From assembly GCF_964222135.1 (NCBI RefSeq), contig NZ_CAXQBR010000084.1, positions 1 through 64,000 of the forward strand: 64,000 nt of DNA, written 5' to 3'. This document shows, piece after piece, positions 25,804 to 51,017 of this stretch. Numbering within the stretch: position 1 is the first letter of the stretch; every line of letters begins with the position of its first letter. The position numbers and the translations under genes were made by a program. The notes under the pieces are model-generated. The model saw nothing but the letters and a program-made list of their open reading frames with translations. It was not told where the DNA came from and searched no databases. The DNA comes from Euzebya sp. (GTDB lineage: Bacteria > Actinomycetota > Nitriliruptoria > Euzebyales > Euzebyaceae).

Positions 25804-27117
25804 GTGCCGTCTGTCCTCTACTCCGCGTCCGTCGTCTGCCCGATGTCCGGACCGCCGCTCGCCGACGGCGCCGTCCTGGTGACCGACGGGGTGATCATGG
25901 CCCTCGGGACCCGGTCGGACCTACGACCCTCCGCGGACCGAGAGCACCACGTCGACGGCGTCCTGCTGCCCGGGTTGGTCGACGGGCACACCGTCCTCGA
26001 GCACTCCGACGTCCGCGAGATCGCCCGGCCCGGCCCGTTCCACGTGTGGCTGCGCGCCGTCCTCGGCTACACCAGCGGGTGGGATGCGGAGCGGTGGACG
26101 CGCTCGGCGCACCGCGGGGTCCAGGACGCGCTCCGCCACGGCGTCACGGCCGTCGTCGACTCGGTCCTCCGCGGCCCCGGGGTCCCCGCCGCCAGCCGCG
26201 CCGGCCTGGCGGGTCACTCCCTGGTCCAGGTGATGCTTGTCGACGCCGACCAGCACGACGACGTCCTCGCCGCCGTGGCCACGTCCCTCGACCGGCCCGC
26301 CCCCGGGCGCACCGTCGGGGTGGCCCCCCACTCGCCCTACACCCTGGGCACGGGCGTGCTGCAGGCCCTCGGGGCGCTCGCCGCCGCGCGGGGACGGCCC
26401 CTCCAGATCCGCGCGGCGGAGTCCAACGCCGAGATCGCGGCACTGCGCACCGGCGACGGCCCGCTGGTCGACCTCGTCGCCGACGTCGGGCTCGACGTCG
26501 AGTGGGCCGACGGCGGCACCGGCCGGGGCGCCATCGGCTACCTCGAGTCCCTCGGGCTGCTGCGGCCCGGCACCACGATCGCCCACGGCGTCTGGGTCGA
26601 CCTCGCCGAGGCGCGGTCGCTGGCGGCGAACGGCGTCGGCGTCGTCTGCTGCCCCCGCGCGAACGGGATGCTCGGGGTCGGCGACGCACCGCTGGAGCGG
26701 TTCGCCGACGCCGGCGTGCCCCTGGCGCTCGGCACCGGCAGCGCCGCCGCGGCGGGCGACGCCGACCTGCTGGCCGAGGCCGCGGCCTGGGTGGAGGTCG
26801 CCCGCCGCCGTGACCTGTTCTTCTGGCCGTCCGCCGCCGGGCCGATCCAGCTCGAGGAGGCCGCGATCCGCCTCGCCACCGTCGACGGCGCGCGAGCGGT
26901 GGGCCTCGGCGACGTCGCGGGCGTGCTCGAGCCCGGCCGTCGGGCCGACCTCCTGGGCGTGTCGCTCGACACCGGTGTGGACACCGTGTACGCGGACCTG
27001 ATCCGACGCGGCACCGGCCGGCAGGTGCTGACCGTCCTCGGCGGCCTCCGCAAGTCCCGCCGGGCCGACGCCGACCAGCCGTGGCCCGCCCTCGAGGAGT
27101 GGAAGGACGACCTGTGA
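25804..27117 (+). CDS. Amidohydrolase-like protein with degenerate metal site
   Basis: This 437-residue protein has the full amidohydrolase layout: N-terminal composite beta domain, GLVDGHTVLEH, VAPHSPYT, AAESNAEI, IAHGVWV and LALGTGS, then a C-terminal beta strand set (VLEPGRRADLLGV). It resembles the S-adenosylhomocysteine/aminofutalosine deaminase group. Several catalytic ligands are replaced: HxH is HTV (residues 62-64), the usual His before AES is Arg, and the catalytic Asp of LGTD is Gly. I infer a non-catalytic or altered protein. The start GTG 25804 follows a TAGACT box. It heads a transcript running through a mini-ORF into menG. Confidence 0.8.
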   Translation: MPSVLYSASVVCPMSGPPLADGAVLVTDGVIMALGTRSDLRPSADREHHVDGVLLPGLVDGHTVLEHSDVREIARPGPFHVWLRAVLGYTSGWDAERWTRSAHRGVQDALRHGVTAVVDSVLRGPGVPAASRAGLAGHSLVQVMLVDADQHDDVLAAVATSLDRPAPGRTVGVAPHSPYTLGTGVLQALGALAAARGRPLQIRAAESNAEIAALRTGDGPLVDLVADVGLDVEWADGGTGRGAIGYLESLGLLRPGTTIAHGVWVDLAEARSLAANGVGVVCCPRANGMLGVGDAPLERFADAGVPLALGTGSAAAAGDADLLAEAAAWVEVARRRDLFFWPSAAGPIQLEEAAIRLATVDGARAVGLGDVAGVLEPGRRADLLGVSLDTGVDTVYADLIRRGTGRQVLTVLGGLRKSRRADADQPWPALEEWKDDL

Positions 27118-27335
27118 GCACGAGCCCGCGAGTGGTCAGAGGACAGGCCGGACCTGTCTCTCAGATCTGGGAGTTGACGCCGTCGGCGGAGGTGGGGCTC
27201 AGATCTGAGGGTGGACAGGCCGGACCTGTCTCTCAGATCTGGGAGTTCACCCCGCCGGCGGAGGCACTGCTCAGATCTGAGGGTGGCCAGGCCGCAGGGC
27301 ACCCCCGGCGAGCCAGCGAGGGGGGTGGGCGGTGA
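27114..27335 (+). CDS. GQAGG mini-ORF A between amidohydrolase-like gene and menG (expanded copy)
   Basis: A 73-codon frame starts at GTG 27114 overlapping the preceding TGA and ends in a TGA (27333-27335) overlapping the menG GTG. Its ends match the 23- and 25-codon mini-ORFs at 28894 and 50946: start MSTSPRVVRGQAG and end [12 protein letters not shown]. The middle contains two 72-bp units, each beginning GGACAGGCCGG and each adding 24 codons in frame. Near the 3' end, arms CACCCCC (27300-27306) and GGGGGTG (27321-27327) can form a hairpin over the menG ribosome-binding region. Translation is inferred from the double overlap, not shown. Confidence 0.5.
   Translation: MSTSPRVVRGQAGPVSQIWELTPSAEVGLRSEGGQAGPVSQIWEFTPPAEALLRSEGGQAAGHPRRASEGGGR
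27141..27284. repeat. Two 72-bp tandem units with AGATCT boxes
   Basis: Units 27141-27212 and 27213-27284 are nearly identical. Each contains two copies of the palindromic core CTCAGATCTG; box starts are 27160, 27198, 27232 and 27270, spaced 38, 34 and 38 bp. The same spacing recurs at 58384-58502. The array is nested inside the GQAGG mini-ORF element. Confidence 0.85.
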
Positions 27336-28483: not shown

Positions 28484-28897
28484 ATGGACGCGGACCTACG
28501 TCCCTCACGACCCGAGGCCAGCCTCGGCGACCTGACCCGCGAGGCGACCGAGCACATGTCGACGCTGATGCGCGACGAGATCGCCCTCGCCAAGAGCGAG
28601 CTGCGGGAGGACGTGCAGGACGCCGTCGCCGGCATCAGCCTGTTCAGCGCCGCAGGGGTCATGGCGCTCATCGCCATCCTCCTGCTGTCGATGGCCGCGG
28701 GCTTCGGGGTGGGTCGGGCGGTCGGCGAGGGGTGGCAATGGCTCGGCTTCGCCGCGGTCGGCGTGCTCTACCTGGTCATCGCCGGCATCGCCGCGCTGAT
28801 GGGCCGGAAGAAGGCGCAGGAGATCCCGCCGCCGGCGCCGCGCACCACCCGCCAGGCACGCGAGACCGTCCAGGCCGCGAAGGAGATCAAGCTGTGA
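28484..28897 (+). CDS. Actinobacterial Holin-X family membrane protein
   Basis: This 137-residue protein has an amphipathic N-terminal region (SLGDLTREATEHMSTLMRDE) followed by two membrane helices (about residues 48-72 and 80-103), the pattern of PF07332 proteins. Despite the name, these are usually chromosomal membrane proteins adjoining DUF3618 genes and not phage lysis proteins. ATG 28484 follows AGGAGA. It is linked through mini-ORF B to the DUF3618 gene. Confidence 0.78.
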   Translation: MDADLRPSRPEASLGDLTREATEHMSTLMRDEIALAKSELREDVQDAVAGISLFSAAGVMALIAILLLSMAAGFGVGRAVGEGWQWLGFAAVGVLYLVIAGIAALMGRKKAQEIPPPAPRTTRQARETVQAAKEIKL

Positions 28898-28971
28898 GCA
28901 CGAACCCGAGAGTGGTCACCGGACAGGCCGGGGGGCACCCCCGGCGCGTCGGCGCGGGGGGTGGGCTGTGA
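28894..28971 (+). CDS. GQAGG mini-ORF B between Holin-X-like and DUF3618 genes
   Basis: A 25-codon frame starts at GTG 28894, overlapping the upstream TGA, and stops at TGA 28969-28971, overlapping the downstream GTG. The peptide begins MSTNPRVVTGQAGGHPRR and ends in Gly-Gly-Gly-Leu. The arms CACCCCC (28936-28942) and GGGGGTG (28957-28963), separated by 14 nt with an inner GCGC/GCGC stem, would cover the ribosome-binding region 4 nt before the next start. An alternative hairpin (GCCGGGGG with CCCCCGGC) competes for the same C-run. Confidence 0.5.
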   Translation: MSTNPRVVTGQAGGHPRRVGAGGGL

Positions 28972-29300
28972 GCACGAGCGACCCCACCACCCAGGAGCGC
29001 GACGAGCTCGAGCGCGAGATCGGCGAGGCCCGCGAGGCCCTGGTCGACACCGTCGACGCCATCGCGGAGCGGATCGATCCGCGCCAGGTCGCCTCGCGCA
29101 ACGTCGAGCAGCTGAAGCGCGACGCCGGCCGCGCGGCGGAGCAGGCCAAGCAGACCGGCCAGGAGGTCCAGGAGAAGGCCACCGCCTACGTCGAGACGCA
29201 CCCCGACGAGGTCAAGAGGACCGCCGGTGGGCTCCTGGGCCTGCTGGCCCTCGTGTGGCTCCTCCGCCGTCGCCGCCGTCGCCGCGCCGACCGCGACTGA
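28968..29300 (+). CDS. DUF3618 family protein
   Basis: This 110-residue protein has an N-terminal acidic coiled-coil-like region (ERDELEREIGEAREALVDTVDAI, the DUF3618 core), then a charged helix, and a C-terminal hydrophobic helix (about residues 86-98) ending in a run of arginines. It probably associates with the membrane together with the neighbouring Holin-X-like protein; the pair is common in actinobacteria. Function is unknown. GTG 28968 overlaps the mini-ORF stop. Confidence 0.8.
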   Translation: MSTSDPTTQERDELEREIGEAREALVDTVDAIAERIDPRQVASRNVEQLKRDAGRAAEQAKQTGQEVQEKATAYVETHPDEVKRTAGGLLGLLALVWLLRRRRRRRADRD

Positions 29301-50271: not shown

Positions 50272-50949
50272 ATGTTCAACGCCCTCCGCAAGGGCTTCGG
50301 TCTGACCTTCAAGACGATGTTCAGACCGGTGTCCACCGTCCAGTACCCCGAGGTGAAGCGCGCCACCCAGCCGCGCTTCCACGGACGGCACGTGCTGAAC
50401 CGCCACCCCGACGGGCTCGAGAAGTGCGTCGGCTGCGAGCTGTGCGCGTGGGCCTGCCCGGCCGATGCGATCTTCGTCCAGGGTGCCGACAACACCCCGG
50501 ACGCCCGCTACTCCCCGGGTGAGCGCTTCGGCGTCGACTACCAGATCAACTACCTGCGCTGCATCTTCTGCGGGCTGTGCATCGAGGCGTGCCCGACCAG
50601 GGCGTTGACCATGTCGAACGAGTACGAGCTCAGCCAGGACTCGCGCGAGGCGATGATCTTCACGAAGGACCAGCTGCTCGCCCCCCTCCCCGAGGGCGCC
50701 CAGCCGACGCCGCACACCGACGCCGAGGTGGCCGCGCGCGGTCTCGAGTACTACGAGCACAACTTCGCCGGGCAGCTGCCGCTGGTCTCGAAGGCCGAGG
50801 GCTACCGCTCGGACCCCCGCCGGAAGAAGCCGGGCGACGGACGGCTGCTCGCCGCCGACCCTCCCGCGAACCCGGTGACCAAGCCGGAGGACGCGATGGA
50901 GGCCGGGGTCGACCCCCGCGACGACGGCGACGACGAGGTCATCGCATGA
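50272..50949 (+). CDS. nuoI: NADH-quinone oxidoreductase subunit I
   Basis: This 225-residue protein has two ferredoxin-type motifs, [12 protein letters not shown] (near residue 52) and [12 protein letters not shown] (near residue 97), which bind clusters N6a and N6b. The C-terminal 80 residues are a charged extension. ATG 50272 lies 2 bp after nuoH. Its stop overlaps mini-ORF C. Confidence 0.96.
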
Positions 50950-51017
50950 GCGCGTCAGCGGTCATTGGACAGGCCGGGGGGAAACCCCGGTGCGCGAGCA
51001 CGGGGGTTGGGCGATGA
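50946..51017 (+). CDS. GQAGG mini-ORF C between nuoI and nuoJ
   Basis: A 23-codon frame starts at ATG 50946 overlapping the nuoI TGA and stops at TGA 51015-51017 overlapping the nuoJ ATG. The peptide begins [16 protein letters not shown] and ends Gly-Val-Gly-Arg, matching mini-ORFs A and B. The arms AACCCC (50983-50988) and GGGGTT (51003-51008), separated by 14 nt with an inner GTGC/GCAC stem and a GCGA loop, cover the nuoJ ribosome-binding region. Base pairs differ from copy B but pairing is kept. Confidence 0.5.

Follow-up and report, generated by a model that had tools for sequence, protein, structure and literature searches.

Short repeats in stop/start overlaps of Euzebya genes carry a covarying hairpin predicted to mask the next gene's Shine-Dalgarno sequence

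The window (the whole 64,000-nucleotide stretch of DNA analysed here) is contig C84 of a 5.06-Mb Euzebya genome, G000. Three elements in it, A, B and C, each hold a mini-ORF wedged between two genes, one hairpin (H1) at the head and a second (H2) just before the next start codon. The features are as follows, with the evidence for each in brackets where it differs.

27114..27335, + strand: element A, a 73-codon mini-ORF flanked by an amidohydrolase gene and ubiE
27114..27138, + strand: H1 of A, TGAGCAC ... GTGGTCA (sequence)
27300..27327, + strand: H2 of A, outer 7 bp kept and inner stem degraded (fold)
28894..28971, + strand: element B, mini-ORF of 25 codons, VSTNPRVVTGQAGGHPRRVGAGGGL, its GTG overlapping the stop of a holin-X gene and its TGA the GTG of a DUF3618 gene (sequence, ORF analysis, covariance model E = 4.7e-15; neighbours by Pfam)
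28894..28919, + strand: H1 of B, GTGA.CAC / GTG.TCAC, its 5′ foot being the target GTGA (RNA fold)
28936..28963, + strand: H2 of B, its 3′ arm bearing the next gene's Shine-Dalgarno sequence (fold, covariation, Shine-Dalgarno analysis)
28968..28971, + strand: right GTGA of B, the target duplicate, where the mini-ORF stop lies over the DUF3618 gene start (left/right match of the D base)
28968-29300: DUF3618 gene downstream of element B
50946..51017, + strand: element C, mini-ORF of 23 codons between nuoI and nuoJ, with ATGA at both ends (covariance model E = 3.3e-14)
50946..50965, + strand: H1 of C, ATGA.CGC GTCA GCG.TCAT, the A of ATGA pairing with T (fold, D/N covariation)
50983..51008, + strand: H2 of C, with a GCGA loop (fold, covariation)

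The original prediction described H2 in these three copies, and its reading of the arms is correct. Copy A pairs CACCCCC (27300-27306) with GGGGGTG (27321-27327) and copy B pairs CACCCCC (28936-28942) with GGGGGTG (28957-28963), each across a 14-nt loop and with the next GTG (27332 and 28968) 4 nt on; copy C pairs AACCCC (50983-50988) with GGGGTT (51003-51008), again across 14 nt, and its ATG (51014) follows 5 nt on. The C-G pair of A and B becomes A-U in C as claimed, the inner stem GCGC/GCGC of B is indeed GTGC/GCAC in C, and the inner stem of A is weaker below an intact outer stem. The proposed GNRA loop fits C, the sole GNRA among the three, and does not extend to the family, where the loop is GNNA and mostly GYCA. 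RNA folding of the H2 fragments gave -27.1 (B), -21.0 (C) and -18.3 kcal/mol (A), the last no better than shuffled sequence (z -0.21). Across the window the arm pattern occurs 3 times where first-order Markov sequence predicts about 1, which is marginally above chance. Because the pattern within the window is near chance and copy A folds like its shuffles, we make the case on the whole family.

Further copies were first exposed by a pattern search of G000, and nine G000 copies served to build a covariance model, R1; element A, though outside its training set, is scored at E = 6.5e-5. A covariance-model search, the check suggested with the original prediction, here run with R1, detected independent copies outside G000 with E values from 2e-13 to 2e-8; matches at E up to 0.01 fall in G000 and four other genomes of the same order. 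An RNAalifold stem of R1, GGTC/GGCC, was dropped, as GATC variants break the pairing. A refined model of 21 copies (R2) gives the same picture. Scanning 396 genomes sampled across the phylum with the model yielded matches in six, all from this order, and none in other orders; one of the six (G015) has a match to a second subfamily only, and the G000 matches on contigs C98 and C61 also belong to that subfamily. In total the family numbers at least about 28 copies dispersed over genomes of Euzebya-type actinobacteria, with about 16 in G000 and 12 in four relatives; these are lower bounds, since each genome had only a limited set of candidates scored. A scan of named genomes with the exact pattern returned a single match, the metagenome-assembled genome JAHWKT010000154.1, at the same hydrogenase locus, and the same pattern had no match in the viral contigs scanned. 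No curated family in Rfam matches the element.

A full copy measures 68 or 74 nt from TGA to TGA and comes with one of two head types. In 5′ to 3′ order it has DTGA, H1 (TGAnCGC, a loop of GTCA or of 10 nt, then GCGnTCA), two or three free bases and GGACAGGCC; there follow GGGGGG, H2 (12 bp, usually with one mismatch, and a GNNA loop), GGCN and DTGA. Full copies occupy DTGA stop/start overlaps exactly, between co-directional genes. For 19 of 21 full copies the mini-ORF, of 23 or 25 codons, begins at the left DTGA and ends exactly on the next start. An upstream frame terminates at the left DTGA in 20 of 21, where two upstream frames (L070, L063) are doubtful as genes and L077 was scored from sequence as a TGATG overlap. 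Most length-changed copies still end at DTGA or fuse in frame: the mini-ORF continues into a short frame ending at DTGA at L071, L081 and L069, and is fused to the downstream gene frame at L070 and L065. L059 breaks the right-end rule, its mini-ORF running on to stop at the real downstream start, and L079 is without an overlapping upstream gene. A copy on contig C29 of G000 has lost H2 wholly while keeping a 12-codon frame and both overlaps, which indicates that H2 is not required at every site. In element A the frame is preserved even though the linker is split by two tandem 72-nt repeats with CTCAGATCTG palindromes.

Those tandem repeats of copy A lie inside the linker at 27154-27285 (CTCAGATCTGGGAGTT...CTCAGATCTGAG); 18-mers akin to them occur elsewhere in G000 (C11:7548 and C7:40261), and two relatives have versions with two mismatches. 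Separately, at L237 (G000:C74) and L097 (G000:C94) element remnants form in-frame N-terminal extensions of the downstream frames, a possible source of new N-termini.

The maintained frame raises the question of whether the mini-ORF encodes a working peptide whose codons generate the hairpins incidentally. The frame is kept in most copies and GQAGG is common, as such a peptide would have it. Single differences in the real frame, however, comprise 241 synonymous against 830 non-synonymous changes with no third-codon excess, the synonymous share is lower than in either of the other two frames, and the pairs of H2 change in both arms together. Given the missing third-position excess and the preponderance of non-synonymous changes, it is the nucleotide sequence and fold that are constrained, not the peptide. 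Conservation of the peptide was rejected on these codon-position differences, and a functional peptide, which the evidence contradicts, strikes us as highly improbable.

H2 covaries strongly. Over 21 copies 90.5% of stem cells are paired, and seven pairs account for 45 cells with a double-sided change; the covariation score is 0.448, against 0.063-0.123 for slid partners. None of 500 shuffles reaches the paired percentage, the double-change count or the score, a comparison in which shared ancestry is only partly accounted for. The covariation among additional copies that the original prediction implied is present. The view that the hairpins are chance GC-rich palindromes or a transcription terminator, to which the high-GC genome and the near-chance arm count in the window lend some colour, is refuted: family-wide covariation and exact placement contradict it, and the window copies sit inside translated overlaps with no T-run after H2. 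We give it next to no credence. Less well served was the proposal of two mutually exclusive folds, in which an upstream G-run captures the C-run. The sequences of B and C allow this helix, but over the 21 copies its changes are limited to G-U drift or lost pairing, and a second conserved fold was rejected because it lacks compensatory change.

Columns 47-51 of the 3′ arm of H2 are 90-100% purine, and it is the 5′ arm that changes to match, so that C-G to U-A replacements keep the purines. The predicted Shine-Dalgarno duplex is stronger in elements (-10.5 kcal/mol) than at 17 empty orthologous junctions (-7.9), and the predicted unpaired probability is lower (0.16 vs 0.43); this comparison sets differing sequences at orthologous junctions side by side, not isogenic strains. 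Family covariation and the Shine-Dalgarno analysis together support the central claim of the original prediction, a covarying hairpin whose 3′ arm is the ribosome-binding site of the next gene. Two compensatory double changes in H2 separate the hydrogenase-locus copies of G009 and G005, which are probably one inherited insertion; these changes suggest that the hairpin has been maintained after insertion. Such upkeep could serve transposition instead of translation.

Overlaps without an insert are found in relatives at the [NiFe]-hydrogenase, recO/uppS, nuoI/nuoJ, UPF0102, ubiE and DUF3618 junctions. At the hydrogenase locus the empty site CGGTGAACGTCGACG in G011 corresponds to the occupied CAGTGA[GCGCG...GGGCTGTGA]ACGTCGACG in G009, and at recO/uppS the empty GCGATGACCGTC in G011 corresponds to GCGATGA[ACGCG...GGGCTATGA]CCGGTG in G007. 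For the window copies, the DUF3618 junction of B is represented by empty sites GGCCGATGAACACC in two Euzebya relatives, and the nuoI/nuoJ overlap of C, whose neighbours are Fer4 (upstream) and Oxidored_q3 (downstream) by Pfam, is empty in G001-G003. The D base of DTGA is equal on the left and right of 24 of 26 copies (17 G-G, 6 A-A, 1 C-C; permutation p < 1e-5), an agreement that marks DTGA as a 4-nt target duplication. Tandem copies occur at recO/uppS in G001 (unit 74 nt) and at one G007 locus. The recO/uppS junction also carries different head types in two families, and sister genomes lack the element there, a pattern suggestive of more than one independent insertion at this site.

Two further observations concern occupied junctions. 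At secD/secF, where G007 has an element, G011 carries a different tandem repeat, ATGACCTCATGCAGCGTCAGCGGTAGGTCGCG... (L132, G011:C174:16400-17000), which also forms a mini-ORF between DTGA sites and is possibly another family with an equal habit. In the right flanks of L061, L075, L077 and L066 the downstream gene start repeats 12-20 nt of the element head (at L061, for example, CTGTGACCGCGAGCCT stands on both sides), perhaps as scars of deleted tandem copies.

The genes beside the copies are functionally unrelated (nuoJ, ubiE, uppS, ftsW and others downstream), as expected of a mobile element rather than of a dedicated regulator. A riboswitch or leader-peptide attenuator governing the downstream gene would account for a structured, covarying RNA over a ribosome-binding site with a short leader ORF. 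It would account less well for such a mixture of downstream genes, for sites that are empty in relatives, for the absence of an Rfam match, and for a peptide and an alternative fold that are both unconserved. This cis-regulatory interpretation is largely refuted, and we judge it very unlikely.

The second covarying hairpin, H1, stands at the element head over the mini-ORF start, and at its foot the target DTGA pairs with element TCAN. The original prediction had lacked this hairpin, as well as the mobile unit, the 4-nt target duplication and the absence of peptide conservation. H1 pairs change from CGC/GCG to CAC/GTG in three copies (A, B and L080), so that the CAC/GTG of B is a compensatory change, and to CGT/ACG in one. 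The paired percentage lies above all 5000 shuffles, if only narrowly given how little the pairs vary; double changes lie above all but 19, with shared ancestry partly uncorrected. In 17 of 25 non-redundant copies, against 9.9 expected (p = 3e-4), the base after TCA forms a Watson-Crick pair with D. This complementarity between element TCAN and target tetranucleotide is a resemblance to IS200/IS605 and not proof of mechanism. One rather speculative scheme, which we think improbable though conceivable as a whole, is that a TCAN guide pairs with DTGA and so finds overlaps, that a nuclease inserts the element, and that H1 then serves both mobility and mRNA coupling.

The element has a less orderly relative. 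Subfamily II (L084, L092, L085, L086, L090, L095, L096, L098, L181, L183, L184, L188, L191 and L193) has a common GGACNGGCCGGGGGGC, a longer hairpin and GGGCKANGT; its core, GGACNGGCCGGGGGGC-hairpin-GGGC, is that of the mini-ORF elements. Some of its sites lie between genes and others within long reading frames (L095, L098); in E. pacifica and G001 it stands at a gene's 3′ end, and it occurs in two genomes of another family as well. One site, in G000 and G001, we take to be leuC/leuD from names read from the sequence. Most copies adjoin a second hairpin of locus-specific sequence, and sometimes a duplicate of that hairpin lies on the other flank. Subfamily II suggests an older structured repeat from which the mini-ORF elements arose as a specialised offshoot.

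These results bear on the most serious alternative, that the hairpins are kept as the DNA substrate of transposition, the element being a single-strand hairpin whose TCAN guide pairs with its DTGA target, much as in IS200/IS605 or REP/RAYT elements, and that any effect on translation is incidental. H1 does join target-derived DTGA to element TCAN with covarying D and N, and the related subfamily adjoins other hairpins and lies partly inside reading frames. A search for the Y1 transposase (PF01797, RAYT/Y1_Tnp), on the other hand, was negative in nine genomes, with 5 of 14 control genomes positive, and both the Shine-Dalgarno-preserving purine bias of the H2 3′ arm and the compensatory changes between copies that are probably orthologous speak for selection at the site of insertion. 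We consider this alternative a real possibility, though on balance a doubtful one. A reverse transcriptase was considered as mobiliser and rejected: it is present in G000, G002, G007 and G011, yet G002 and G011 are without elements.

Among known systems the closest are the mycobacterial interspersed repetitive units (MIRUs), which are in wide use for tuberculosis typing and whose target is DTGA. To our knowledge they are described as without obvious dyad symmetry, and their movement and tolerance inside operons are poorly understood. PMC12548453 portrays MIRUs (Supply et al. 1997) as small mobile repeats whose insertion at start codons leaves an internal ORF coupled to the gene by a -4 nt overlap; tandem MIRU units of 77 bp and 53 bp lie at senX3-regX3 (PMC4213456). 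The Euzebya element, at 68 or 74 nt, is likewise a short dispersed repeat in the size class of about 50-100 bp with several copies per genome, it has an internal ORF that overlaps the upstream stop and downstream start by 4 nt, and it inserts into DTGA sites, with tandem copies at some loci. It differs in its two covarying hairpins, H2 masking a strong Shine-Dalgarno sequence and H1 having the target DTGA as its foot, and in its Euzebya-type host. The two were compared by description, and among the 396 genomes of the phylum the element model is without match outside the order. An open-access literature search for similar elements outside mycobacteria found none. The family is apparently separate from MIRU, with an equal insertion rule in a distant actinobacterial order. 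REP/BIME sequences, moved by RAYT, and IS200/IS605 elements resemble it as short palindromic dispersed repeats in which element-target tetranucleotide pairing is conceivable, whereas the Euzebya element lies inside operon overlaps with an ORF and not in untranslated extragenic space, and no Y1_Tnp gene was found in the genomes that carry it, among the nine searched. Coupled leader ORFs that unmask a ribosome-binding site offer a further parallel, since translation of the Euzebya mini-ORF would melt the Shine-Dalgarno hairpin; the Euzebya device differs in being mobile and in standing ahead of unrelated genes.

We therefore favour, with good but not full confidence, the interpretation that the hairpin belongs to a small non-autonomous MIRU-type mobile element, tolerated because it rebuilds translational coupling through a masked Shine-Dalgarno sequence. 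Sequence comparison gives good support for the anatomy, the exactness of insertion, the duplicated target, the covariation and the unconserved peptide, and burial of the Shine-Dalgarno sequence in H2 is predicted. In the proposed course of events the element enters a DTGA where a TGA stop and an ATG or GTG start share bases, duplicating 4 nt. With its 68 or 74 nt, a new start falls on the left DTGA and a stop in the same frame on the right DTGA, so that upstream gene, mini-ORF and downstream gene stay a chain of 4-nt overlaps. It also supplies a strong predicted downstream Shine-Dalgarno sequence, locked in the 3′ arm of the 12-bp H2. A ribosome ending the upstream gene may reinitiate on the mini-ORF, melt H1 and then H2, and terminate at the right DTGA, where the next gene would be started by the same ribosome or by one using the exposed Shine-Dalgarno sequence. 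As the mini-ORF overlaps both neighbours, coupling through it is the natural reading; that downstream translation depends on the mini-ORF, by way of reinitiation and melting, we infer from the arrangement of the sequence. The selective advantage would presumably be a low cost to the host: an insertion may be harmless because the element rebuilds the coupling, the mode that PMC12548453 gives for MIRUs.

For Euzebya-type actinobacteria, target DTGA paired with element bases is a first clue to target choice, and if the guide scheme is true, a single H1 structure would serve both mobility and translation. The covarying hairpins offer a concrete, testable model of a masked Shine-Dalgarno sequence opened by mini-ORF translation. 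An apparently separate family that shares the MIRU insertion rule suggests that rebuilding translational coupling is a route by which mobile DNA may repeatedly enter dense operons.
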